DNA of 64,000 nt from a virus: the IMG/VR virus record IMGVR_UViG_3300032050_000036, positions 49,499 to 113,498 of that record. One strand, given 5' to 3'. Shown here in pieces: positions 31,472-54,613 of this stretch; the stretch's first letter is position 1; every line of letters starts with the position of its first letter. Under the pieces are notes generated by a model. It worked only from the letters and a program-made list of their open reading frames with translations. It was not told the origin of the DNA and did no database searches. The translations under genes and the position numbers were made by a program.

Positions 31472-31617
31472 TGTCAGAATCGCAAAAAATTTCAGAAATT
31501 GATAATATGGGTCGTGAAAAGTTTTGGGAAGATTTAGGAAGACCAGAAAACGATGGTTTGGCACTTAAGATATTTAAAGAAGAATGTTGCGAAAACTGTT
31601 CTTGTAAAAATAATTAA
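31471..31617 (+). CDS. Small Cys-tailed protein, 48 aa
   Basis: The ATG overlaps the speD TAA (TAATG). A charged helical protein (EIDNMGREKFWEDLGRPEN) ends ECCENCSCKNN, a four-Cys tail that could bind metal. Its last 4 nt overlap the end of the leftward oxygenase gene. Coupled to speD; role unknown. Confidence 0.5.
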   Translation: MSESQKISEIDNMGREKFWEDLGRPENDGLALKIFKEECCENCSCKNN

Positions 31618-32294
31618 TTTACTTTAGTTTTCTTAATAAGGTCTACAATACTTAGACTGTCATTTTCTGCTAGAAGTTCTCTTAATCCAAATGAAACTTT
31701 TCTATGTTCTAATTCAAACCAATGAAACATAGGCATAGTATGTCTACGTGTTGGGCCATTAGGATTTTCTAAAACCTTTAATACCTCATGCTTAAAGTGA
31801 CAGGGAAAAAATACACATGTTCCCTTTTTAGGTTTGATAGTAATGTTGTAATCTGGAAAACGAATCTCTCCTCCAAGGTATTCATCGTTTAGGTACATAA
31901 GGCAGCCTATATCTAAAAATGGCCAATCTGGAGGGGTATCAAGACCATCTGCATGCTCTCCTAAAGCAGCATCTACTTGCCACCTAATAAGTTCATATCC
32001 ACTATGCCCCCTATAGCCTTTGATATCTAATCCTCGATCAAATATAAATCTTTTTGCTGCTTCTAGCATAGAGAGTCTTTCGTATTTATACATTATCTCT
32101 ATAACTTCTTTATCGTCAATTATGGTTTTATATTCTGTAGATTGTCCACCATATATTGGCTCAACATATGCAACATCTTTAAGAGATGTCACTGGAACTT
32201 TTGAGTAGAAAGAGTTAAGAACCTTTAAATCTTCTTCTTTAATAAAATTAGGAGCAACCTGTATCATATGATCATAGTGATATATGTCGTTCAT
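31614..32294 (-). CDS. Prolyl-4-hydroxylase-like 2OG-Fe(II) oxygenase
   Basis: The C-terminal domain has the double-stranded beta-helix signature: ALGEHADG near residue 110 (H-x-D metal ligands), IGCLMYLND, GGEIRFPDYN, KKGTCVFFPCHFKHEVLKV with the distal His, and RRHTMPMFHW with the 2-oxoglutarate Arg. The 226-residue length fits P4H-type enzymes. They hydroxylate prolines; the collagen-like fibre proteins of this phage contain GxP/GPxG tracts, which makes fibre hydroxylation a testable idea (inference). Confidence 0.8.
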   Translation of the reverse strand: MNDIYHYDHMIQVAPNFIKEEDLKVLNSFYSKVPVTSLKDVAYVEPIYGGQSTEYKTIIDDKEVIEIMYKYERLSMLEAAKRFIFDRGLDIKGYRGHSGYELIRWQVDAALGEHADGLDTPPDWPFLDIGCLMYLNDEYLGGEIRFPDYNITIKPKKGTCVFFPCHFKHEVLKVLENPNGPTRRHTMPMFHWFELEHRKVSFGLRELLAENDSLSIVDLIKKTKVN

Positions 32295-34846: not shown

Positions 34847-35245
34847 ATGGCAAATCTCTGTGCTCCCGAAATTTTTGGTGCTGATCCAGTTACCATTCAG
34901 TGGAGAGCAGTTCGTGGAGATACAGCAACATTAAGAGTAGAATTTTATGAAGACGATGAAGTAACTTACTATAATACAGAGGGTTGGATTTATCGTTGTA
35001 CCGCCTATGATCAGTCAGGAAATGTTTTAGATGCCCTCGATTGTGAGCCAGGAGAAGGTTTTGTAGATATTACTGCCTTTGCCTCTGTTACAAAAAACTG
35101 GGGTAGTGGATATTTAGCAAATGTTGCAGAATTACCATTTGACGTGCAGGTAATTATTCCAGAAGAAATAGAAGACATTGTTTGGACACCAGTTGTTGGA
35201 ACAATTTATGTTATTGGTGATGTTACACCAGGAGGTACTTTATAA
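34847..35245 (+). CDS. Tail/baseplate beta-sandwich protein
   Basis: The 132-residue protein contains VTIQWRAVRGDTATLRVEFYEDDE near residue 14, a pattern shared with the product of 45717-46106 (IRWTIVRGDSAAFRVYVTDDE). This RGD(T/S)A pattern recalls N-terminal domains of baseplate upper proteins and pilin-like phage domains. The rest is strand-rich. It starts the fibre operon and ends in a 1-nt overlap with the collagen-like fibre gene. Likely an attachment domain protein for fibres. Confidence 0.55.
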   Translation: MANLCAPEIFGADPVTIQWRAVRGDTATLRVEFYEDDEVTYYNTEGWIYRCTAYDQSGNVLDALDCEPGEGFVDITAFASVTKNWGSGYLANVAELPFDVQVIIPEEIEDIVWTPVVGTIYVIGDVTPGGTL

Positions 35246-36129
35246 TGGCAGTTATTAAGATTGTTCCTATGCCAGGCGCAAAAGGAGATCAGGGAGATGC
35301 AGGCTCTGTAGGTCCACAAGGTCCTCAAGGAGAAACTGGTGCAACAGGTTCAGCAGGTGCCGATGCTGTATGGTATTACAATGGTGCTTATAATCCAGGT
35401 GCAGCATATGCAGTTGGCGATATAGTTACATATGAAGGACAAACCTGGTATCGCAAAAATGCAAATGGTGGAAATGTTGGAGATACACCATCTGAAGGAT
35501 TGTTTTGGGATTTAATTGCAGCAAAAGGCGAACCTGGCTTAAATGGTCTTGAAGGAGAAACTGGTCCACAAGGAGAACAGGGAATTCAAGGTGAACAAGG
35601 ACCACAAGGTTTACAGGGAGAGCAAGGATTGCAAGGAATTCCAGGACCTCAAGGAGAACCTGGATCAATTACAAATTTAAAATTTGGATCATTTTTTGAT
35701 ACAACAGTTCAAACTGGCGGATCAATAAAACCATTTGAATTAAACTCAACAGATGTAAGTAATGGAGTTTCTATTGTAGATGGTTCACATATTACAATGA
35801 CAACACTTGGAATTTATAATATTGCATTCTCTGCACAATTACAAAAAACAGGTGGATCTTCTGCAGATATTTATATTTGGTTAAGACATAATGGAGTAGA
35901 TGTTCCAGACACTGCAACAATAATTCATATGGCAAACAATAATACATTTAATGTTGCTGCATGGAACTTCTTTGTTGATTGCAATACACTTCCACAAGAT
36001 TTTCAGTTAATGTGGTATACAGAATCTACAAGCGTTTCTATTGGGGCAATTAGCGATGCTGTTACTCCAGTTGGAGTTCCTTCTATACCGTCGATTATTT
36101 TGACAGTAAACAAAGTCGGAGACCTATAA
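35245..36129 (+). CDS. Collagen-like tail fibre with carbohydrate-binding module
   Basis: The 294-residue protein has two collagen-like Gly-X-Y tracts (residues ~12-36 with GPQGPQGETG, and ~92-146 with GETGPQGEQGIQGEQGPQG), separated by a small ChiC/CBM5-12-type domain (WYYNGAYNPGAAYAVGDIVT...GQTWYRK). The C-terminal ~150 residues look like a C1q/TNF-type jelly roll (GIYNIAFSAQLQKTGG). Trimeric collagen stalks with a globular tip are typical receptor-binding fibres. The prolyl-hydroxylase-like protein (31614) is a possible modifier. Confidence 0.75.
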   Translation: MAVIKIVPMPGAKGDQGDAGSVGPQGPQGETGATGSAGADAVWYYNGAYNPGAAYAVGDIVTYEGQTWYRKNANGGNVGDTPSEGLFWDLIAAKGEPGLNGLEGETGPQGEQGIQGEQGPQGLQGEQGLQGIPGPQGEPGSITNLKFGSFFDTTVQTGGSIKPFELNSTDVSNGVSIVDGSHITMTTLGIYNIAFSAQLQKTGGSSADIYIWLRHNGVDVPDTATIIHMANNNTFNVAAWNFFVDCNTLPQDFQLMWYTESTSVSIGAISDAVTPVGVPSIPSIILTVNKVGDL

Positions 36130-36138
36130 GGTTAATCC

Positions 36139-36858
36139 ATGGCTGTTTCAAAATCCATGGACTTTCCATCAAGTAAAAAATCAAGTTATGCTGCACAAGT
36201 TGTAGAAACTCAAAATACTAATACTGATGTTTTAATTAATTATGTTCCTGTCCCTGGCCCAATGGGACCACAAGGACCTGCTGGGGTACCTGGACCTCAA
36301 GGACCTGCAGGAAAAGACGGGATTCAGGGACCCAAGGGCGAAAGAGGCATACCTGGTAAAGACGGTCTAAGTTCTTTATCTGTATCTGGACAACAGGCAG
36401 GCTGGGGATCATATTTTAATCAAAACAGAAAAGAAATAAGATTAGGAGCAAATCAGGGAGAAGATGGCTGGGTCAGTGTTTGGGTAGATTCAAAGGGTAT
36501 CAATACAAATGAAAAATATTTACCAGAAGGATGCACCAGCCTTTGGAATGAGCATCAAAGAATGCTTAATTTTCATGGCCTTAAAATAGGATGTCAGGTG
36601 TTTGTAACATATAATTTTGAACTTACTACACATAGCAATAATACAGAGGTTTGGCTTAGAACCTTTTTCCCTAAATCTACCACAGAAATTTCACAATATG
36701 TAGCGTCGTTAAAATATCAATATGTTTATAATATGTATGTTACTCAACAATTTTTTATAGAAGATAGTGCAATGTGGTCTTCTGGAGCGATACCTCAAAT
36801 TAGAACTGACTACGACTCCTCATTATTAATGAATTCCATCTACGTTAGCGTGGTATAA
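36139..36858 (+). CDS. Collagen-like tail fibre protein
   Basis: The 239-residue protein has a collagen tract (GPMGPQGPAGVPGPQGPAGK through GERGIPGKDG, residues ~36-76), preceded by a 35-residue N-terminal arm and followed by a beta-rich C-terminal domain with several Trp and Tyr. It is probably a trimeric fibre. It follows the other collagen-like fibre directly. Confidence 0.7.
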   Translation: MAVSKSMDFPSSKKSSYAAQVVETQNTNTDVLINYVPVPGPMGPQGPAGVPGPQGPAGKDGIQGPKGERGIPGKDGLSSLSVSGQQAGWGSYFNQNRKEIRLGANQGEDGWVSVWVDSKGINTNEKYLPEGCTSLWNEHQRMLNFHGLKIGCQVFVTYNFELTTHSNNTEVWLRTFFPKSTTEISQYVASLKYQYVYNMYVTQQFFIEDSAMWSSGAIPQIRTDYDSSLLMNSIYVSVV

Positions 36859-39252: not shown

Positions 39253-39471
39253 ATGACAAATTTAAATGAAACTATTGTTGATGTTGCGAATAATACAGTT
39301 ACTGTTAATGATATATCTGCACAAAAAATTGCAGAACTTGCTTCTGAAGGTGCAAGAATAGAAGAAGAAAGACTTGCAGCAATAGAGGCTAGAAAAAATG
39401 CTAGGGCAGCATTAATTACTAAACTAGGTATTACTGAAGAAGAAGCACAACTTTTATGGGGTGATAATTAA
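39253..39471 (+). CDS. Small fibre-associated helical protein, 72 aa
   Basis: AGGAGATAAC precedes the ATG. The protein starts with a short beta stretch and continues as a charged helix (EGARIEEERLAAIEARKNARAAL) ending EEEAQLLWGDN. This recalls small fibre-assembly proteins, but the match is only in size and place. Its stop overlaps the next ATG. Confidence 0.45.
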   Translation: MTNLNETIVDVANNTVTVNDISAQKIAELASEGARIEEERLAAIEARKNARAALITKLGITEEEAQLLWGDN

Positions 39472-40100
39472 TGTCAACAGTTAGTTCAACTAGTAAAGTA
39501 GCATACATGTATGATCAAACATCAGATACTTGGTATGCAGTTGCTGGTACGGCCAATACAAATGTTGCATATAACTGGCAGGCTGCACATACTTTTGGCT
39601 CTGTTGTAACTGTTAATGATGTTATTCGTGCTAAGGCTGGAGTAAATAGATTTCAAAACTATACCGCCAGAGATGCAGTGATTACTTCTCCAGCAAAAGG
39701 GACTGTATGCTTTGTTGAGCAAACAAATGGCGGTACTGATATAAACCAACTTCAAATTTATAATGGTACATCATGGGTAGGAATGCTTGATACTGCAACT
39801 CTAAGCACTAAAACTGCTGATTATAACTTAGGTCTTGCAGATGCAGGACAAACATTATTAATTGATTCTACTAGCGATAGAACTGTTACTGTTCCACTCA
39901 ATTCTGCTGTACCGTTCGCAAATGGACAAAGAATAGATGTTGTAAGATTAAATACTGGCAATGTAACATTTGCTGGAGCAGTTGGTGTAACAATTAATAG
40001 CAAAAATTCAAACAAGAAAATTGCTGCAAGGTATTCTGGCGCAACTCTTATCAAATATGATACAGATACCTGGGTACTTATTGGCGATTTGACGGCGTAG
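39471..40100 (+). CDS. Tail fibre protein with shared C-terminal domain
   Basis: The 209-residue protein ends with a domain (GRTVTVPLN-like core, GVTINSKNSNKKIAARYSGATLIKYDTDTWVLIGDL) that recurs at the end of the 651-residue fibre at 49211 (RTQYSGATLIKRDTNTWILTGDL). The N-terminal half is beta-rich (YMYDQTSDTWYAVAG). The shared tip suggests modular exchange among fibres. Confidence 0.6.
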   Translation: MSTVSSTSKVAYMYDQTSDTWYAVAGTANTNVAYNWQAAHTFGSVVTVNDVIRAKAGVNRFQNYTARDAVITSPAKGTVCFVEQTNGGTDINQLQIYNGTSWVGMLDTATLSTKTADYNLGLADAGQTLLIDSTSDRTVTVPLNSAVPFANGQRIDVVRLNTGNVTFAGAVGVTINSKNSNKKIAARYSGATLIKYDTDTWVLIGDLTA

Positions 40101-40108
40101 GTGATCCA

Positions 40109-42217
40109 ATGCTTGGCTGGCTTGGTAAATGGGCGGGATCCAAAGGAATGGGAAAAATCCCAAACCTTATCGGTTTAACAAAACAACAAGCAAGAGAAAC
40201 TTTACAAAACGCTGGATTTAATTATGGACTAGAGAGTGAAGAAGTTCAAGGCAATGAGTCTTTAACAAATAAAGTTAAATCACAAGGCAAAGCACATAAT
40301 GATCTTGTTGATTATGAAACATCAGTAGATTATGTTATTCATACATTTACTTTTACCCCATATTCATTTACACCTACATATTCATTTACCCCTATGACAT
40401 ATTCTTTTACACCAGTTTCATATTCGTTTACTCCACAAGTATATTCTTTTACCCCACAAGTATATTCGTTTACACCACAGGTATATTCGTTTACACCACA
40501 GGTATATTCGTTTACACCAATGACTGTAACTTGTGAACCATGTGAAAATTATGGAAATGTATTGGTAATTCCAACATGTAATGGAGAAGATTCTTATGAG
40601 GGATACTGGCAACCTCAAAGACAAAACTGCTCAGATGGATCAACCGTCGACTGTCCAAATATATTTGTTGGATACGGCAATATTCTTGAGGCTAATTCTA
40701 CATCTTGTGGAGGATCTGGAACTTACTCCTTTACCCCACAAACTTATTCCTTTACACCTTACTCCTTTACGCCTACGCCTTACACATTTACACCTACCTC
40801 TAACAACTGTCCTTCGCCAGGAGCATGGGGCGATTGGGGTCCTTGCGTAGATGGAGTCCAGAAGAGAACACGTACCAACTATGACGATGTTCCAGGCTGT
40901 CCTCCATTTATTGAAGAAGAGACGCAGTCTTGTACTGGAACTTACTCCTTTACGCCTTACTCATTTACACCTTACTCCTTTACGCCTTACACATTTACAC
41001 CTACCTCTAACAACTGTCCTTCGCCAGGAGCATGGGGCGATTGGGGTCCTTGCGTAGATGGAGTCCAGAAGAGAACACGTACTAACTACGATGATGTTAC
41101 AGGATGCCCTCCATTTATCGAAGAAGAGACGCAGTCTTGTGTTGTAGCATACTCCTTTACACCTTACACATTTACACCTACCTCTAACAACTGTCCTGCA
41201 CCAGGAGCATGGAGTGCGTGGGGTCCTTGCATAGATGGAGTCCAGAAGAGAACACGTACTAACTACGATGATGTTACAGGATGCCCTCCATTTATCGAAG
41301 AAGAGACTCAGTCTTGTACTGGAACTTACTCCTTTACACCTTACTCATTTACTCCTTATTCCTTTACTCCTTATTCCTTTACACCAACAGCATATTCCTT
41401 TACTCCTTATTCCTTTACACCAGTTTCTAATGGCTGTCCTGCACCAGGAGCATGGAGTGCGTGGGGTCCTTGCGTAGATGGAGTTCAAACAAGAACACGT
41501 ACTAACTATGATGATCTTCCAGGCTGTCCTCCATTTATCGAAGAAGAGACTCAGTCTTGTGTTGTAGCATACTCCTTTACACCTTACTCCTTTACACCTT
41601 ACTCCTTTACACCTTACTCATTTACTCCTTATTCCTTTACACCAATGACATATTCGTTCACACCTTATTCATTCACGCCTTATTCATTCACGCCTTATTC
41701 ATTCACGCCTTATTCATTCACGCCTTATTCATTCACGCCTACATATGCATTTACACCAGTTTCTAATGGCTGTCCTGCACCAGGAGCATGGAGTGCGTGG
41801 GGTCCTTGCGTAGGTGGAGTGCAGACAAGAACACGTACTAACTACGACGATCTTCCAGGATGTCCTTCATTTATTGAAGAAGAAACACAGTCTTGTGTTG
41901 TAGCATATTCCTTTACTCCTTATTCCTTCACACCTTATGCCTTTACACCTACATATGCATTTACACCAATGACATATTCATTTACACCTTATTCCTTTAC
42001 ACCAGTAGCATATTCATTCACACCTTATTCCTTTACACCAATGACATATTCATTTACACCTTATTCCTTTACACCAACAGCATACTCATTCACGCCTACA
42101 TATGCATTTACACCAACAAGTTCGGGCTGTGCTTGTGCTGGACTAGATAATTGTACTGGCGCATGCTGTGTAGAATGCGGTGGTTTCCTAAGTGGAGGGG
42201 AATGTGTAGGATGCTAA
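40109..42217 (+). CDS. Giant repeat adhesin: PASTA-like, YSFTP and thrombospondin-type repeats
   Basis: The 702-residue protein has a PASTA-like start (IPNLIGLTKQQARETLQNAGF, residues ~17-80). From residue ~80 it consists of about 49 pentapeptides of the form Y(S/A/T)FTP, often spaced by MT, VA, TA or QV. Five ~46-residue modules are set among them, each reading C-P-x-PGAWxxWGPCxxGVQxRTRTNYDD, GCPxFIEEETQSC; the W-x2-WGPC...G-Q-x-R-x-R core with four Cys is thrombospondin type-1-like. A further Cys domain (CEPCENYGNVLVI) lies near residue 138, and a Cys-rich tail (GCACAGLDNCTGACC) ends it. No signal peptide; probably a virion adhesin. Function unknown. Confidence 0.75.
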   Translation: MLGWLGKWAGSKGMGKIPNLIGLTKQQARETLQNAGFNYGLESEEVQGNESLTNKVKSQGKAHNDLVDYETSVDYVIHTFTFTPYSFTPTYSFTPMTYSFTPVSYSFTPQVYSFTPQVYSFTPQVYSFTPQVYSFTPMTVTCEPCENYGNVLVIPTCNGEDSYEGYWQPQRQNCSDGSTVDCPNIFVGYGNILEANSTSCGGSGTYSFTPQTYSFTPYSFTPTPYTFTPTSNNCPSPGAWGDWGPCVDGVQKRTRTNYDDVPGCPPFIEEETQSCTGTYSFTPYSFTPYSFTPYTFTPTSNNCPSPGAWGDWGPCVDGVQKRTRTNYDDVTGCPPFIEEETQSCVVAYSFTPYTFTPTSNNCPAPGAWSAWGPCIDGVQKRTRTNYDDVTGCPPFIEEETQSCTGTYSFTPYSFTPYSFTPYSFTPTAYSFTPYSFTPVSNGCPAPGAWSAWGPCVDGVQTRTRTNYDDLPGCPPFIEEETQSCVVAYSFTPYSFTPYSFTPYSFTPYSFTPMTYSFTPYSFTPYSFTPYSFTPYSFTPYSFTPTYAFTPVSNGCPAPGAWSAWGPCVGGVQTRTRTNYDDLPGCPSFIEEETQSCVVAYSFTPYSFTPYAFTPTYAFTPMTYSFTPYSFTPVAYSFTPYSFTPMTYSFTPYSFTPTAYSFTPTYAFTPTSSGCACAGLDNCTGACCVECGGFLSGGECVGC

Positions 42218-43144: not shown

Positions 43145-43660
43145 ATGGCCGAAATAACTAATAATTATGGACTCACATATCCAGAATCTTCTGATCCTGT
43201 AAATGTACATAATGATATTAAAAAATTAGCAGATGATGTTGATGATGCTATTTCTTCTCTTGATGCCTCAAATGTGCGGGTAAAAGTAATAAATAACTCA
43301 GGATCAACTATAGGTGCAGCAAAACCAGTATATGCAGTCGGACATGAGAACAATAAAACAGAAATTGAATTATTTACATCATCATTATCTGATAACTACC
43401 CTTTACTTGGTTTAACAAAAACATCTTTAATAAATGGAGCAAGTGGAGAAGTTGTTGTTGCTGGAGTTTTAACAAATGTAAATACAAGCAGTTTTTCAGA
43501 CGGAGAACTATTATATGTAGACTCTTCTGGCGTTCTTACAACCACTATAACAGGTGGTGCAGTAGGAATAGTCGCAGTATCAAGTACAACAAATGGAGTA
43601 ATTGTTGTTCAGGCAAAAGGCAACGGTACTTGGGGAGCACTAAAGAAAGGACTATCATAG
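43145..43660 (+). CDS. Fibre-region structural protein, 171 aa
   Basis: The N-terminus (AEITNNYGLTYPESSDPVNV, then a helix DIKKLADDVDDAI) is typical of phage fibre attachment ends; the rest is Ser/Thr/Val-rich beta sequence ending GNGTWGALKKG. It starts at 43145 behind a leaderless promoter. Its last base overlaps the first of the epimerase GTG. Confidence 0.55.
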   Translation: MAEITNNYGLTYPESSDPVNVHNDIKKLADDVDDAISSLDASNVRVKVINNSGSTIGAAKPVYAVGHENNKTEIELFTSSLSDNYPLLGLTKTSLINGASGEVVVAGVLTNVNTSSFSDGELLYVDSSGVLTTTITGGAVGIVAVSSTTNGVIVVQAKGNGTWGALKKGLS

Positions 43661-44691
43661 TGAAAAAAAAGACAGCACTTGTTTTTGGAGCAGGCGGTTT
43701 TATAGGATCACATATGGTCAAAAGACTAAAACAAGAAAATTATTGGGTTCGTGGTGTTGATCTAAAATATCCAGAATTTGAAAAGTCACATGCAGATGAA
43801 TTTATAGTTAGAGATCTCTCTGATTATGAAAATGTAGAAAAGGTTATTCAATTTAAAGGATATGCAGGTAATTTTTATTATAATGTTTTTCCAAAATTTA
43901 TAGATTCTTTTGATGAAATTTATCAATTTGCAGCAGATATGGGCGGAGCAGGATATATCTTTACTGGAGATAATGATGCAAATATTATGGAAAATTCTGG
44001 ATTAATAAATTTAAATCTTTTAAGAGCACAGAATAAATTAAATATTAAAAAAAATATTAATAAAACAAAAATTTTTTATAGTAGTTCTGCATGCATTTAT
44101 CCATCTCACATTCAAGAATCAGAAAATAATAATGGATTAAAAGAAGCAGATGCATATCCAGCCAACCCTGATAGCGAATACGGCTGGGAAAAACTTTTTA
44201 GTGAAAGACTATTTTTATCATTTAATAAAAATTATAATATACCAATAGCAATAGCACGATACCATAATATTTATGGTCCAGGCGGTACTTGGCAGGGGGG
44301 TAAAGAAAAGGCCCCTGCTGCAATATGTAGAAAAGTTATACAAGCAAAAGATACAGTAGAAGTTTGGGGAAATGGAAAGCAGACCAGATCATTTTTATAT
44401 ATTGATGATTGTATAGATGCTACAAGGAAATTAATGCAGTCTAACTTTACTGGCCCTATTAACATTGGCTCTGAAGAGATGGTTAGTATTAATGAGTTAG
44501 TTGACATAGCATGTTCTATAGAAAATAAAAAAATTATTAAAAAACATGTAGTTGGTCCAGTGGGAGTTCGTGGAAGAAATTCTAACAATGACTTAATTAG
44601 ATCTGAATTAAATTGGGACTATAAAACTTCTTTAAGGGATGGAATTAAAAAAACATATGACTGGATCAAACAACAAAACCAAATATTCTAA
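43660..44691 (+). CDS. GDP-mannose 3,5-epimerase-like extended SDR
   Basis: The 343-residue protein starts with a Rossmann loop (ALVFGAGGFIGSHMVKRL), then YQFAADMGGAGYI, SSSACIYPSH, DSEYGWEKLFSERL (catalytic Y-x3-K) and RYHNIYGPGGTWQGGKEKAPAAICRK. These blocks correspond closely to plant and bacterial GDP-mannose 3,5-epimerase. The reaction would yield GDP-L-galactose or GDP-gulose. Initiation is a GTG at 43660. It sits inside the fibre operon followed by a transferase, so it may supply a sugar for fibre or host-glycan modification. Confidence 0.8.
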   Translation: MKKKTALVFGAGGFIGSHMVKRLKQENYWVRGVDLKYPEFEKSHADEFIVRDLSDYENVEKVIQFKGYAGNFYYNVFPKFIDSFDEIYQFAADMGGAGYIFTGDNDANIMENSGLINLNLLRAQNKLNIKKNINKTKIFYSSSACIYPSHIQESENNNGLKEADAYPANPDSEYGWEKLFSERLFLSFNKNYNIPIAIARYHNIYGPGGTWQGGKEKAPAAICRKVIQAKDTVEVWGNGKQTRSFLYIDDCIDATRKLMQSNFTGPINIGSEEMVSINELVDIACSIENKKIIKKHVVGPVGVRGRNSNNDLIRSELNWDYKTSLRDGIKKTYDWIKQQNQIF

Positions 44692-45709
44692 TTTTATATT
44701 CTATAAACTACATCACGCTGGTTTAATAAACAGGTTATATAGTTTACAATGTGCAATTGGAATATCACATATAATGAATAGGCAATTAGTTTTATATAAC
44801 CTTAAAGACAGAAATGGAAAATATTTAGATGATCCATCTGTACACTATATAAAAAATTATAATTTATCTTATGGAGCAAAAAGTAATATTATTAATAATA
44901 TTGAATATACAAAATTTTTTGATTTAATAGATTATGATGAAGAAAAAATTTTTGATAAAATTAACTATTACACAATTTCAAAATTTTATGATAATGAATA
45001 TACCTATACACATCCACTACATAATTCTTTTATAACTGTTTCAGAAACCTCTGAAGATAAAAATTTATTTAACGCTTTTGAAATTGATTTAACAAAAGAT
45101 GAACCATATCATTTTAAAGGCGACAACTTATCCAACTATTCTACATTATTTTTAAATAGAACAAAAGAATTAGACATTGCTTTGTCTAGTACAATGTTTA
45201 AAAAAGAATACCATGAATTTGCAGAATTGGTTAGTAAAAGTTTGGGTAAATATAACTGTATCCATGTTAGGCTTACTGATCATAAACATAACTTTAATGT
45301 TACAGAAAATAATTTAATTGATGCAATAGAAAATTTAAACAATTTACCAATTATAGTTTGTACAGATGAGCCAGAACACGAAATGTTTAAAAATAAAAAT
45401 ATTAAACTTATAGATGATATTATTGTAAACAATTTTTCAAAAGAGTTCAAAGATTTATCTATCAACTCAGAGATAGTTTTTGGATTGGTATCACTTTTAA
45501 TTGCATCAAAATCTCAAGATTTTATAGGAACATATTTTAGTACATTCACATCATATATTCATAGGCAACACTACCAAAGAGACATAATCAAGCCTGCAAA
45601 ATTTTTAGGAAGGTCTGATTTATCTGAGTCAGGATCACCATGGTCTTGGGTAGGCATAGGAAAGCAAGGAATAGCAAGAGACTGGCCAGAGTCAAGACTT
45701 ATGATATAA
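44657..45709 (+). CDS. Fucosyltransferase-like protein
   Basis: The ~350-residue protein begins FIFYKLHHAGLINRLYSLQCAIGISHIMNR, a glycine/Asn start like that of O-fucosyltransferase folds, and has CIHVRLTDH near residue 200, the H-x-R-x-x-D/N motif of the GT11/GT65/GT68 group that binds GDP-sugar. DFIGTYFSTFTSYIHRQHY near the end matches the conserved C-terminal SxxSxF/xxHR region. A GDP-sugar donor made by the adjacent epimerase is plausible. The start is uncertain (44639 or 44657); both overlap the epimerase gene. Confidence 0.5.
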   Translation: MTGSNNKTKYSNFIFYKLHHAGLINRLYSLQCAIGISHIMNRQLVLYNLKDRNGKYLDDPSVHYIKNYNLSYGAKSNIINNIEYTKFFDLIDYDEEKIFDKINYYTISKFYDNEYTYTHPLHNSFITVSETSEDKNLFNAFEIDLTKDEPYHFKGDNLSNYSTLFLNRTKELDIALSSTMFKKEYHEFAELVSKSLGKYNCIHVRLTDHKHNFNVTENNLIDAIENLNNLPIIVCTDEPEHEMFKNKNIKLIDDIIVNNFSKEFKDLSINSEIVFGLVSLLIASKSQDFIGTYFSTFTSYIHRQHYQRDIIKPAKFLGRSDLSESGSPWSWVGIGKQGIARDWPESRLMI

Positions 45710-49210: not shown

Positions 49211-51166
49211 ATGGCAACAAGAATGCAACAAAGAAGAGGAACCGCAGCACAATGGACTGCTGCAGACCCAATTTTGGCAGCAGGAGAAATCGGATTTGAG
49301 ACTGACACTGGTAAGTTTAAGATTGGTAATGGTTCGTCTATTTGGTCTGCTCTCTCCTATTTTGCAGATTCACAAGATTTTAGTTCAGCAAACGTAGTAA
49401 TGAACTCAGAAAAGGGTTCAGCAAACGGAGTTGCTCCACTAAATGCTGATGGATTAATTCCTTTGGCATACATGGCAAAACTTATTGAAGGAACATCCGT
49501 TAACCTAGATACATTTGCAGAAGTTGCAACAGCAATTGAAGCATTACAAGAACATGAAGCAGCAACAACACAAATTCATGGCATTACAGACACATCAGAT
49601 TTGGTGATTAGTTCACAACTTTCTTCAGCAATATCAGTTCATAACTTACTTACAGAAAATATACATGGAATTGAAGATACTGCTGAACTTGCTACAAAGG
49701 ATTATGCTGATACAGCAGCAGCAACAGCAGCATCATCTGCACAATCAACAGCACAATCATTTGCTACAACTGCAGCAAATAATGCACAATCTGCAGCAGA
49801 AGATTATGCAGATTCTGTGTCTTCAACTGGAATAACTGCACACAATGCAGTTACAACTAACGTACACGGAATTCTAGATACAGCAGACTTGGCACTTTTG
49901 TCAGATGTTTCTGACGCACAATCTGCAGCAGAAGATTATGCAGATTCTGTGTCTTCAACTGGAATAACTGCACACAATGCAGTTACAACTAACGTACACG
50001 GAATTCTAGATACTACTCAACTTGCTACAAAAGCATACGCTGATGCAGCAGCGTCTGCTGTTTCTGACGATCTAGACTCTCACGCTAATGATACTACAGG
50101 AATTCATGGAATTACTGATACCTCATTACTTGTGACAACAGATGGGTCTCAAACATTAACAAATAAAACTCTTACGTCTCCAGTAATAAATACACCAACA
50201 GGAATTACTAAAAGTGATGTTGGTCTTGAAAATGTAAACAATACCTCAGATGCAGACAAGCCCATATCAACTGCTACACAAACAGCACTTGACTTAAAGG
50301 CTGCCATAGCATCACCAGCACTTACTGGAACACCAACTGCGCCAACTGCAACAGCAGGAACAAATACAACTCAGATTGCTACTACTGCATATGCAGATAC
50401 TGCTGTGTCTAGTGCTATCACAAATCATAACTCTGATACAGAAAACGTACATGGAATTGCAGATACAGCAGATTTAGTTCTTACAAATGATGCTCGTTTG
50501 TCTGATGAAAGAACACCAGTAGATGGATCTGTTACAACAGCAAAGATTGCAACAGGTGGAATTGCACAGTCAGCAGTTACAAATCTTACAACAGACTTGG
50601 CTGCAAAGGCTACTTTGGTATCACCAGCACTTACTGGAACACCAACTGCGCCAACTGCAACACTTGGAACCAATACAACACAAATTGCTACTACTGCGTT
50701 TGTTAAGGCTGAAGTTGATGCATTAGTTGCTGCAGCCCCAGGAGCATTAAATACTCTTGATGAACTTGCAGCAGCATTGGGAGATGATGCTAACTTTGCA
50801 AGTACAGTTACAGCATCCTTGGCTACAAAAGCAAGTACAACAGACCTAAATAATGCTCTTTTGTATTCATTTAATAATGAAACTGCAAGTTATACTCTTG
50901 CACTATCAGATGCAACAAACATGGTAGAGATGGAATCTTCTTCTTCTACCACAGTAACAGTGCCACCTAATGCATCTGTAGCATTTTCAATTGGAGCAAC
51001 AATTGATATTTTCCAAAAAGGCACAGGACAAGTAACAATCGCAGAAGGATCTGGTGTTACAATTTATGCAACTCCAGGTAAAAAACTTCGTACACAATAT
51101 TCAGGCGCAACTCTAATAAAAAGAGATACGAACACTTGGATATTGACAGGCGATCTTTCAGCATAA
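49211..51166 (+). CDS. Long tail fibre, 651 aa
   Basis: AAGGAGAGAAAAAAT precedes the ATG. The start MATRMQQRRGTAAQWTAADP, LAAGEIGFETDTGKFKIGNG is the widespread N-terminal domain of fibre/tropism proteins. Repeats of the form (V/I)HGIxDTxxL occur about eight times in the shaft, with nearly identical copies at 49791-49898 and 49923-50021. The C-terminal tip (RTQYSGATLIKRDTNTWIL) is shared with the 39471 protein. Confidence 0.75.
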   Translation: MATRMQQRRGTAAQWTAADPILAAGEIGFETDTGKFKIGNGSSIWSALSYFADSQDFSSANVVMNSEKGSANGVAPLNADGLIPLAYMAKLIEGTSVNLDTFAEVATAIEALQEHEAATTQIHGITDTSDLVISSQLSSAISVHNLLTENIHGIEDTAELATKDYADTAAATAASSAQSTAQSFATTAANNAQSAAEDYADSVSSTGITAHNAVTTNVHGILDTADLALLSDVSDAQSAAEDYADSVSSTGITAHNAVTTNVHGILDTTQLATKAYADAAASAVSDDLDSHANDTTGIHGITDTSLLVTTDGSQTLTNKTLTSPVINTPTGITKSDVGLENVNNTSDADKPISTATQTALDLKAAIASPALTGTPTAPTATAGTNTTQIATTAYADTAVSSAITNHNSDTENVHGIADTADLVLTNDARLSDERTPVDGSVTTAKIATGGIAQSAVTNLTTDLAAKATLVSPALTGTPTAPTATLGTNTTQIATTAFVKAEVDALVAAAPGALNTLDELAAALGDDANFASTVTASLATKASTTDLNNALLYSFNNETASYTLALSDATNMVEMESSSSTTVTVPPNASVAFSIGATIDIFQKGTGQVTIAEGSGVTIYATPGKKLRTQYSGATLIKRDTNTWILTGDLSA

Positions 51167-51193: not shown

Positions 51194-52342
51194 ATGCCAA
51201 TTAGAGGTAGAGGTAAGAGCAGGGGTGGAAGTTCAAAGACACGTCTAAATGGAACTATCCCTTGTACTCCAAAAAACATTACTGTTCAGGATGTTGGAAC
51301 AGGTCGTGCATTCAATAATGGTGCTATTCAAGTAACTTTTACTGTAGACAGTGAATGTACACCAGCAACATCCTTTACAGCAACAGCAAGTACTGGACAA
51401 TCAGTAACTGGCTCTTCTTCTCCTTTATTAATTACAGGAATAGCAACTGGCGCTACTCCTACGGTTACAGTAAAAGCAACCAATCAGTATGGAGACTCTT
51501 TGTCTTCATCAGCAACTGCAGCAGTAACAATTACTACTGTACCAGCAACGCCTTCTGCTCCATCCGCATCTTCTCCAACTCCATCTTCTGCTCCAAACGT
51601 TGCTGGATCAACAACAGATTCAGTATCTTGGGCAGCGCCAGCAAATGGTGGAAAAGCAATAACTAGTTACGACTGGTTATCTTCAGACTCTAAATCTGGA
51701 AATACGTCTTCAACATCAGTTTCTGTAAATCAAGAAGGTGGTACATCTCAAAGTTATCAGGTTAGAGCATGTAATGCAAATGGATGCGGCTCTTACTCTG
51801 CATCATCATCACCAGCAACCACTACATTTACATTTACACCATACTCATTCACTCCATACTCATTTACACCATATTCATTTACACCATACTCATTTACACC
51901 ATATTCGTTTACACCATACTCATTCACTCCATACTCATTTACACCATATTCATTTACACCGATTTATTCATTTACACCATATTCATTTACTCCATACTCA
52001 TTTACACCTGTATACTCATTTACACCTATGTATACATTTACTCCATATTCATTTACGCCATACTCGTTTACACCTACGTACTCATTTACACCTGTGTATT
52101 CATTTGTTCCTTATTCATTTACACCATATGCATTCACACCTATGGCCTACTCGTTTACACCTTTGTATACATTTACACCTACGTACGCATTTACACCTAT
52201 GACCTACACATTTACACCATATGCGTTCACACCTATGACCTACGCATTTACACCATATTCGTTCACACCTATGGCAGCAGCAGGATGTAACCCAGCATGC
52301 TATGCCCCTTATTTCTGCTATAACGGATCTTGTATATATTAA
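51194..52342 (+). CDS. YSFTP-repeat adhesin with FN3-like domains
   Basis: The 382-residue protein has a basic N-terminus (GRGKSRGGSSKTR), two Ig/FN3-like domains (residues ~25-110 and ~120-205; SVSWAAPANGGKAITSYDWL is FN3-like), then ~27 Y(S/A/T)FTP pentapeptides from residue ~210 to 360, and a small Cys-rich end (CNPACYAPYFCYNGSC). The repeat type is the same as in the 702-residue protein at 40109, but thrombospondin-like modules are absent. AAAAGGAGAATAAT precedes the ATG. Likely a virion adhesin. Confidence 0.75.
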   Translation: MPIRGRGKSRGGSSKTRLNGTIPCTPKNITVQDVGTGRAFNNGAIQVTFTVDSECTPATSFTATASTGQSVTGSSSPLLITGIATGATPTVTVKATNQYGDSLSSSATAAVTITTVPATPSAPSASSPTPSSAPNVAGSTTDSVSWAAPANGGKAITSYDWLSSDSKSGNTSSTSVSVNQEGGTSQSYQVRACNANGCGSYSASSSPATTTFTFTPYSFTPYSFTPYSFTPYSFTPYSFTPYSFTPYSFTPYSFTPIYSFTPYSFTPYSFTPVYSFTPMYTFTPYSFTPYSFTPTYSFTPVYSFVPYSFTPYAFTPMAYSFTPLYTFTPTYAFTPMTYTFTPYAFTPMTYAFTPYSFTPMAAAGCNPACYAPYFCYNGSCIY

Positions 52343-52390: not shown

Positions 52391-53050
52391 ATGCAAAATA
52401 ATCTTGCTATTGCAATTTTAGCCGATGATGAAGTTTTTGATATATTAGATTTTGATTATGCACCAGAAGATCAAAAAAATAGAGTTATAAACGGGTTTAA
52501 TAATAACCCAACTGGCCTTGATATTACTGGACTAAAAGGTATTGGCTTAGGATCTAGATTAGTTTCTGGAGGTTTTGATAATTCTTTTTTAATATCACCG
52601 CCTCATATGAATAAAGATGATAAAAATGTTTATGCTTTTTTATCTGAAGATAAAGTTTTTTTAATAGTTGCCATAGCAAAAGACAATAAAGAAAAAGCAG
52701 AAGTTTGGGAAAATGCATTTAAAACAGAAGTTACTGGAATTATAATAAATAATCGTGATACTACCAAAATTGGAGATTTTTGGGACGGTACAAATTTTGT
52801 AAAAAGTACAAATACTAATAAAGAAACACCGTGGCAGACATGGAAGAAAAACTTAGGAACTACCAGGCCTTGGGATATAGTTAATCCTCAAAAAGAAAAG
52901 GTGTCTGAAGACGAATCAAATCGTAGACTAGATATATGCAAACAATGTCCAGAGTTAATACAGATAACAAATCAATGCAAAAAGTGTGGATGTATTATGC
53001 CAATAAAGGTTAAACTAAAAGAGGCGGTATGTCCAATTGGTAAGTGGTAG
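52391..53050 (+). CDS. Protein with C-terminal CPIGKW zinc ribbon, 219 aa
   Basis: The first ~150 residues are a soluble acidic domain (NLAIAILADDEVFDILDFDY, ...GSRLVSGGFDNSFLISPPH), ending in WDGTNFVK. Residues ~175-219 are a zinc ribbon (RRLDICKQCPELI, QCKKCGCIM, AVCPIGKW) homologous to the free-standing protein at 32296. AAGGAGG precedes the ATG. The function is unknown; both proteins may bind the same partner. Confidence 0.6.
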   Translation: MQNNLAIAILADDEVFDILDFDYAPEDQKNRVINGFNNNPTGLDITGLKGIGLGSRLVSGGFDNSFLISPPHMNKDDKNVYAFLSEDKVFLIVAIAKDNKEKAEVWENAFKTEVTGIIINNRDTTKIGDFWDGTNFVKSTNTNKETPWQTWKKNLGTTRPWDIVNPQKEKVSEDESNRRLDICKQCPELIQITNQCKKCGCIMPIKVKLKEAVCPIGKW

Positions 53051-53095: not shown

Positions 53096-53881
53096 ATGAA
53101 AAACATTTATTTTTTACATATTCCAAAAACTGCGGGTACTTTTATAGATAGTGCAATTATAAAAGGCTTAGATAAGGAAAACATACCTCATTATGCAAAT
53201 AAAAGTTCTGAATTTCCACATAAAATAAATTTTGAAGAAGTAAGATATATTTCTGGTCACTTTGGAACATATCCTATTAAAAATAGTAGTTACTTAGATT
53301 TTTTTACAATATTGCGAAATCCGCTAGACCTATCTATTAGTTATTTTAATTTTGTATATAATATTAAGTATGATCATATATATAGTAATATTAAAGGATA
53401 CAAAAATAGATTAATAAAATATTTGTTAAATGACGAAAATACTAAAATATATAATAATATACAGTCTAGGTTTTTATCAAATTCAGCAGATAGTAGTATA
53501 TTTTATCCAAATAATAAAACCAGAGAAGAATTAGAGACAAATTCAGATTCTAATAACCCTATGTGGTTTGTTGATAATAAAAATACATCTTTTGATAATG
53601 CAGTAAAAACTATAGATGCTTGTTCTCTTGTTGGGTCAGTAGAAAACTTAGAAAGTTTTTGTGAAAAATTAAGTAAATATTTTTTATTTAACTTAGGCGT
53701 AAATATAGAATTTGAGACAAACAAAAAAGTAAACGAGTCATTTGCTATAGATAATGGTATTAGGTATACAACTGAAGATGCTATAAATTTATTGTCAAAG
53801 GAAGTAATTGAAGAGTTTATTTTAAACAATAAACTAGATTATTTAGTTTATTCTTATGCATTAAGGCACGATTTAATATGA
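53096..53881 (+). CDS. PAPS-dependent sulfotransferase
   Basis: The 261-residue protein carries the sulfotransferase signature: YFLHIPKTAGTFIDSAI at residues 4-20 (5-prime-phosphosulfate loop), a central ISGHFG strand, and FFTILRNPLDLSISYFNF near 70-85 (3-prime-phosphate motif with Arg and Ser). The HIPKTAGT form is that of Sulfotransfer_2-type carbohydrate sulfotransferases. PAPS could come from the APS-kinase-like gene at 4521. Acceptors may be fibre glycans or host cell-wall sugars. AAGAGGAATAAA precedes the ATG. Confidence 0.8.
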   Translation: MKNIYFLHIPKTAGTFIDSAIIKGLDKENIPHYANKSSEFPHKINFEEVRYISGHFGTYPIKNSSYLDFFTILRNPLDLSISYFNFVYNIKYDHIYSNIKGYKNRLIKYLLNDENTKIYNNIQSRFLSNSADSSIFYPNNKTREELETNSDSNNPMWFVDNKNTSFDNAVKTIDACSLVGSVENLESFCEKLSKYFLFNLGVNIEFETNKKVNESFAIDNGIRYTTEDAINLLSKEVIEEFILNNKLDYLVYSYALRHDLI

Positions 53882-53902: not shown

Positions 53903-54613
53903 ATGAATAAGATAACTTTTACACCAGCATTTCCAGAACTAAAAAATGTTGTTCCGTTACCAGAACCAGCAACAAAAAATGTTCCTAATTGGTATAAGGA
54001 GCAACCTGCAAAAATAGATAATGAAATACAAAATGGTGTCATGAAGTTGACCGTAAAGAAATGTCAGTCTTTTTTTGATGCCATGGCAATAGGATATACA
54101 CTAAAGATGCCAGTAGATATATATGTAGATACAACAGATGGAAAGCAAGAATTTCAAATACCAAAAGATTTAGATGCTCATAAAGCAAAAATTATTAGTT
54201 TCCACTCTAAAGAACAGGTAAGCCATTTGCCTATTGACACAGATATATACATAGATCATATATTTAGAGTGCATCCAAACTGGATGGCTTCAACTCCACA
54301 AGGATATAGTTGTTTTTTTATAAGTCCAATACATTCTGCAATATCTCCACTAAAAGCAGTAGAAGCAATAATAGACACGGATAATTTTTGGTCTGATGGA
54401 CACCTATCTTTTTTTGTAAAGAAAAACTTTAAAGGTATCCTTAAGCAAGGAACCCCACTAATTCAAGTTTTTCCTTTTAAGAGAGATGACTGGGAGATGT
54501 CTATTAATAAAGAAGTTAATTCTGAAGAGATTAGTGAACAAAGAATTATGCTAAGATCTACTTTTGAAAATGGATATAAGATGAAGTATTGGGTAAAAAA
54601 ACTTTTTAAGTAA
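53903..54613 (+). CDS. DUF6065-like protein
   Basis: The 236-residue protein has TVKKCQSFFDAMAIGYTLKMPVDIYV near residue 50, WMASTPQGYSCFFISPIH near 132 and KQGTPLIQVFPFKRDDW near 175, the pattern I associate with DUF6065 proteins common in marine phage and bacterial clusters. There is no known function. A TATACT box and TAGGAGG precede the ATG closely. It follows the sulfotransferase gene. Confidence 0.6.
   Translation: MNKITFTPAFPELKNVVPLPEPATKNVPNWYKEQPAKIDNEIQNGVMKLTVKKCQSFFDAMAIGYTLKMPVDIYVDTTDGKQEFQIPKDLDAHKAKIISFHSKEQVSHLPIDTDIYIDHIFRVHPNWMASTPQGYSCFFISPIHSAISPLKAVEAIIDTDNFWSDGHLSFFVKKNFKGILKQGTPLIQVFPFKRDDWEMSINKEVNSEEISEQRIMLRSTFENGYKMKYWVKKLFK

Follow-up and report, generated by a model that had tools for sequence, protein, structure and literature searches.

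A pair of stalk genes in an uncultured phage

The window analysed here, a stretch of 64,000 nucleotides from a viral record of 113,498 bases, encodes at 40109..42217 (+ strand) a protein of 702 aa, hereafter stalk A, which combines a PASTA domain, YSFTP linkers, a module that we call X, five modules resembling the thrombospondin type-1 repeat (TSP1), and a Cys-rich C-terminal cap. A previous sequence-only reading of this DNA had counted about 49 YSFTP-type pentapeptides and five near-identical modules in the ORF, and our recount agrees with it: the 49 units are 41 YSFTP, 4 YAFTP, 3 YTFTP, and 1 FTFTP. The PASTA domain, module X, and the cap (42116..42214, +; residues 670-702, delimited from the sequence) had been overlooked, as had a second YSFTP protein, stalk B (51194..52342, +; 382 aa), made of two FN3-like domains, 27 (Y/F)xFxP pentapeptides, and a small Cys cap. 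In the relatives of stalk A, the position of the cap is occupied by other caps or by a Hint domain. The host is likely to be found among actinobacteria because the portal protein shares 48% identity with the portals of Streptomyces phages and the ribonucleotide reductase is 63.5% identical to that of the Actinomycetia phage DSL-LC01, from lake water; a PASTA domain would fit such a host. The tape-measure protein has 2680 aa.

The array is not the product of chance, since the record contains 34 copies of its DNA pattern (TAYTCNTTYACNCCNTAY), all on a single strand, and a backwards control 0. Pairwise comparisons of the array units revealed 2634 synonymous against 392 non-synonymous codon differences, where single-base changes would lead one to expect 539:1666, and the TSP1-like modules have a dN of 0.01-0.09 for a dS of 0.14-0.46. 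The ORF of stalk A is under purifying selection, and it is therefore the peptide itself that is kept. The arrays of the two stalks have only 3 DNA units in common, among 23 and 19 distinct ones, and their longest shared run is 17 nt. This near absence of shared DNA rules out a recent gene conversion or copy between the arrays, and the sameness of the two peptides is not the result of one. In the AlphaFold models the YSFTP linker has a pLDDT of about 32-63 and no assigned structure, a low confidence on which the idea of a flexible stalk rests and which may equally mean that there are too few sequences. Stalk A does not match the pentapeptide-repeat profile PF00805 (A(D/N)LXX) at E<=1. A scan of a genome collection for YSFTP DNA returned five stretches, none of which is a plausible YSFTP gene (the single in-frame one lies inside an unrelated ORF), and thus no cellular source was found.

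The FN3 identity of the stalk B family is indicated by a profile match to titin chains (E=1e-17) and by a PF00041 score of 28.2 (cut-off 25) in one relative (L027); stalk B of the window itself has no match to Pfam fn3. A scan identified at least 532 relatives of stalk B.

Fibre genes precede the stalks and are sometimes fused to them

Both stalk genes follow a fibre gene on the same strand. Stalk A is separated by a gap of 9 bp from a fibre/minor-tail-like gene (39471..40100, +), whose product ends in W..GDLTA and has a C-terminal part that shares 31-44% identity with minor tail proteins of phages, chiefly of Gordonia phages. Stalk B lies 28 bp behind a second fibre gene (49211..51166, +), whose product has an Mtd_N head (PF18454, 55.7 bits), ends in W..GDLSA, and also matches Gordonia phage minor tail proteins in its C-terminal part. 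An upstream fibre gene with a terminal W..GD[LIV] was found in all the FN3-type loci that have an upstream ORF (67/67) and in all the PASTA-type loci tested (16/16). Some proteins, a minority, have fibre and stalk fused. In L159 a single protein runs from a fibre, through YSFTP, PASTA, and again YSFTP, to Cys modules, and its N-terminus is 42% identical to the full-length product of 39471-40100 (E 7e-57); similar fusions are seen in L157 and L158, where the linkers are VTP and PTP/VAP. That fibre genes precede the stalks at every locus tested, and that fibre/stalk fusions exist, is the main reason to regard the stalks as extensions of fibres. Stalk A has the position with fibre genes, and in its relatives the fusion to them, that characterise tail fibres and adhesins. 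The extended adhesive stalk with knobs that had been proposed from the sequence is thereby strengthened as a prediction, by the fibre gene directly upstream and by the fused relative.

The C-terminal domain of Gordonia phage minor tail or tail-fibre proteins (e.g., William gp32) is common to the upstream fibres of the window and to the N-terminus of the fused forms. The gene that comes next in William encodes a 143-aa protein that, unlike the products of the stalk genes, lacks a low-complexity linker. Searches with tblastn in a cultured-phage set of 50,697 records did not match the stalk, and gave no useful match for the whole stalk A protein or for the FN3 part. The same gene cluster encodes two collagen-like (GPQGPQG) fibre-type proteins (35245-36129 and 36139-36858). 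Collagen-like phage fibre proteins, as described in PMC3368898, resemble the stalks in using low-complexity repeats as fibre material, but the stalks are devoid of Gly-X-Y and their type of linker is exchangeable.

A PASTA domain and a module X at the start of stalk A

The N-terminal domain of stalk A (40148..40345, +; residues about 14-79) is a PASTA domain by both sequence profile and fold. The Pfam profile PF03793 matches residues 16-59 with 26.0 bits (cut-off 23.2), and among 12 orthologues it is above the cut-off in seven, with a maximum of 41.5 bits, below it in three, and unmatched in two (L010 and L012). When modelled by AlphaFold with the orthologues, the region has a pLDDT of 77-91 per ten-residue block, and Foldseek retrieved the PASTA domains of PknB, PrkC, StkP, and PonA2 with a probability of 1.00 and TM-scores to the target of up to 0.80. 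Stalk A thus resembles PknB and PBP2x in the profile and fold of this domain (PF03793), but its single PASTA opens a stalk protein of a phage, whereas theirs are part of a membrane-bound kinase or of a penicillin-binding protein. The predicted structures of PASTA_pknB-domain proteins from uncultured Caudovirales phages (UniProt A0A6J5NY54, A0A6J5NCK4, and others) also match the stalk A PASTA (E 6e-8 to 1e-4); these proteins are named by their domain only, and the comparison covers the PASTA part alone. PASTA domains are normally extracytoplasmic, and the binding of peptidoglycan is not universal among them.

The domain is followed by module X (40532..40714, +; residues 142-202), which is Cys-rich, distinct from the TSP1-like modules, and modelled as three long strands with a pLDDT of about 81-91. 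It is common, in the alignment, to stalk A and to the orthologue of L009, which has a PTP/FFP linker.

Five four-cysteine modules with a likeness to TSP1

The five modules of 42 aa (40808..40933, 41015..41140, 41192..41317, 41435..41560, and 41771..41896, all +) share the pattern CPxPGAW..WGPC..GVQxRTRTNYDD..GCPxFIEEETQSC. The W-x-x-W and R-T-R motifs described earlier, which would form a Trp/Arg ladder, are present in 5/5 modules; the two cysteines reported beyond WGPC are actually three, which makes four per module (in CPxPG, WGPC, GCP, and QSC). The TSP1 likeness survives in part. Pfam TSP_1 (PF00090) matches the whole of stalk A with 34.9 bits (1.7e-8, cut-off 21.6; best stretch at residues 560-591, in module 5), a score that is reached because five weak modules are summed. 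Single modules in a six-frame search of the record remain below the cut-off, with two matches at about 15 bits, one of them module 4. The thrombospondin type-1 repeat (TSR) has six cysteines in three disulfides. The modules of stalk A lack two of these six, and the pairing of their four would be an extrapolation; they also lack the C-x-x-S/T-C motif (CSxTC) of O-fucosylation, since WGPC is followed by V/I-D/G-GVQ without a second Cys. The AlphaFold model has two long strands per module (pLDDT about 70-78), a possible resemblance to the three-strand fold of the TSR. Foldseek placed the third TSR of BAI1 in third rank (probability 0.87, TM to target 0.58), with nothing at E<=0.001, and a profile of the modules searched against the PDB did not find a TSP1 chain. 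We thus refer to a TSP1-like four-Cys module, whose membership in the TSR family is borderline and not proven. Such modules are, as had been stated, rare in phages: tblastn gave no match below E 0.1 in the 50,697 phage records, and among 2.9 million viral contigs there is one other close locus, in L012, and a more distant look-alike in L150.

Linkers are exchanged among relatives and matched within a phage

The orthologues of stalk A keep the N-terminal region and differ in their linker. This is YSFTP in L014, L015, L017, L019, and L020, PTP plus PFFPPFF in L009, NTV/NTQ in L010, VTP in L012, NTQ/ATQ in L036-L039, APVAAPT in L040, FSPFGVF in L148 and L150, and TTP in L149. The relatives of stalk B have YSFTP, PFFPPFF, FSPFGVF, or FGAFGA. 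The initial observation that YSFTP matches no known fibre repeat was therefore an understatement, as the array belongs to a set of no fewer than eight linker types that can replace one another in this group of phages (YSFTP, PTP, VTP, NTQ, APT, PFFPPFF, FSPFGVF, and FGAFGA).

In most cases, both stalks of a phage have linkers of the same type. In the 18 contigs with both, the 4-mer similarity between A and B linkers is 0.209 within a contig and 0.058 across contigs (permutation p=5e-5), and the result persists in a reduced set of 14 contigs (p=5e-5). For G003, the ORF entered as A in this test was incorrect; the actual A linker, VTP, does not resemble that of its B either, and the error brought no gain to the result. 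The matching could also be caused by shared assembly or modification, rather than by adhesion. This swapping of linkers across the family, together with their matching in the same phage, is of greater interest than the likeness to TSP1.

The C-terminal ends are also variable, and include Cys caps, short ends (e.g., FNFAPWG), and a Hint or bacterial-intein-like (BIL) domain, which is present in many sister stalks (L014, L017, L019, L026, L036, L040, L046, L052, L075, L149, and others) and in neither stalk of the window. These domains match the BIL 2lwy by profile (E=2e-6), as well as inteins, and have Cys1 and a terminal HN, often as VHN. In the copies from YSFTP phages, Glu or Gln takes the place of the block-B His, and splicing activity is doubtful for that reason. 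A stand-alone ORF that is weakly Hint-like adjoins the stalk gene of L010 (5695-6222). In L016 (11553-12269) a frameshift interrupts the YSFTP array, and the other frame runs into a Hint domain, which may reflect slippage, phase variation, or an assembly error.

A candidate accessory stalk of the tail fibre

We propose that the ORF at 40109-42217 is probably an accessory tail-fibre stalk, i.e., an adhesin, of an uncultured and probably actinobacterial phage. This role would involve 1) attachment of the stalk to the tip of the fibre, mediated by the W..GDL domain of the fibre and, on the side of the stalk, by its conserved N-terminal region; 2) an extension by the YSFTP array, which would be flexible, aromatic, and Pro-spaced, and would present the TSP1-like, X, and cap modules; 3) contacts of the PASTA domain with the stem peptides of the peptidoglycan in a wall of the Gram-positive type, as may be expected from the binding of muropeptides by the PASTA of PknB (PMC3145798); and 4) swaps of arrays and modules that might diversify surface binding or evade defence while attachment is retained. 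If this is true, then this group of phages diversifies its adhesins by keeping the attachment domain constant and exchanging whole low-complexity stalks and Cys modules behind it, with two stalks in step, and such a mode of receptor-binding diversification has no description that we could find in the open-licence literature. None of the papers found there combines PASTA, FN3, or TSP1 with low-complexity stalks of phages. Judging from the sequences, we would thus have a well-conserved adhesin-like stalk whose construction appears not to be described there.

Enzymes encoded near the stalks

The accessory stalk is compatible with a second explanation, which adds a layer to it and which we hold for a serious possibility short of an even chance. 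The stalks would be substrates of phage enzymes, with Pro hydroxylated, Thr, Ser, or Hyp glycosylated, and Tyr perhaps sulfated, resulting in a rigid or shielding hydroxyproline-rich glycoprotein whose linker type would correspond to the enzymes that the phage carries. An argument for it comes from B genes with a PFFPPFF linker. These are followed, on the same strand and within 10 kb, by 5-9 genes for 2OG-Fe(II) oxygenases of the prolyl-hydroxylase-like type (PF13640) in 12/12 contigs with room, and 76 of the 88 PF13640 hits in these contigs are in the downstream 10 kb, for a uniform expectation of 24.5. The downstream counts of PFFPPFF differ from those of other linker types with a Mann-Whitney p=8e-7, a value that overstates the independence of the counts because linker classes were assigned by hand and the contigs are related. 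The contigs with oxygenase arrays are L104, L105, L067, L062, and others (G001, G017, G018, G021, G022, G025, G027, G028, G033, G034, G037, and G039). The FSPFGVF and short-F types with room have one PF13640 copy behind the B gene (9/9). In contrast, none was found behind the FGA and YSFTP B genes with room (for YSFTP, 0/5 contigs), and G005, G013, and G019 have none at all. Prolyl hydroxylation of YSFTP stalks was set aside on account of these 0/5 contigs. Furthermore, belonging to the PF13640 family does not name the substrate. The window has a PF13640 gene away from the stalks (31614..32294, − strand; 39.8 bits, cut-off 27), one of three in the record.

Other enzymes are encoded near the PASTA stalks of relatives: PF13640 oxygenases in L010 and L012, GT61 in L012, and a PF11397 GlcNAc-transferase in L009 (7898-8824, 117 bits), a family that is nevertheless present in only 5/40 records. 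Close to the stalks of the window there are a nucleotide-sugar type NAD-dependent epimerase/dehydratase (43630..44691, +; PF01370, 129.6 bits), a possible O-fucosyltransferase-like protein (44639..45709, +; PF10250, 16.2 bits, under the cut-off of 31.5), and, downstream of stalk B, a marginal member of the sulfotransferase family (53096..53881, +; PF03567, 22.8 bits, cut-off 22). We do not claim fucosylation or sulfation because the last two have no match in the PDB. The sites of glycosylation suggested by the sequence-only reading fared no better. O-glycosylation, taken as O-fucosylation, would require a motif that the modules lack, and the neighbouring O-fucosyltransferase-like gene is below the cut-off; C-mannosylation is unsupported, even if W-x-x-W is present. 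The mannosylation of proteins in actinobacteria targets secreted ones (PMC12757957), which makes it a less than obvious way to modify a protein of the virion.

One may tentatively go further and imagine, as a generalisation that we think less likely than not, that these phages build fibres akin to hydroxyproline-rich glycoproteins, in which swappable stalks at the tail tip have each linker class modified by a phage-encoded enzyme set of its own (oxygenase arrays for PFFPPFF, other enzymes for YSFTP), stalks and enzymes being exchanged together. The association between linker and enzyme genes holds for PFFPPFF, with its oxygenase arrays, and not for the YSFTP stalks of the window. The link between PFFPPFF stalks and prolyl-hydroxylase-like arrays makes the prolyl hydroxylation of phage fibres directly testable.

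Other explanations

Stalk A might instead be a non-virion protein, exported to the infected cell or displayed on it, where it would block superinfection or aid lysis. PASTA domains are usually outside of the cytoplasm, and a lysozyme-like gene (SLT_3) adjoins the stalk on the opposite strand, but the start of the protein (MLGWLGKWAGSKGMG) has no obvious signal peptide, as judged by eye, and both the constant place behind fibre genes and the natural fusion to a fibre make such an export improbable. We regard as quite unlikely that the modules are a TSP1 domain derived from eukaryotes and acting as a glycan-binding knob with C-mannose. The whole-protein Pfam score, the WxxW and RxR motifs, and the similarity to BAI1 TSR3 would be in its favour; the four cysteines instead of six, the missing CSxTC, the scores of about 15 bits for single modules, and the PDB profile search are against it, as is the placement by relatives of unrelated Cys modules at the same spot, which makes the TSP1-like module one of many. 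The least credible explanation, that the arrays are a functionless outcome of neutral tandem-repeat expansion, could invoke the frameshifted array of L016 and the differences in length between array-bearing proteins in 6/9 pairs of FN3-type proteins with N-termini at least 95% identical, but it conflicts with the strong synonymous excess, with the same peptide being encoded by different DNA in two genes, and with the matching of linkers in the same phage.

Further genes accompany the stalks. Proteins with a conserved C-terminal C-x2-C...CKxCGC...CPxGKW are encoded after stalk genes in the window (52391-53050), in L009 (7115-7345), and in L012 (6273-6518). A protein without a Pfam match (53903-54613 in the window) has relatives that likewise follow the FN3 stalk in L030, L032, and L033.
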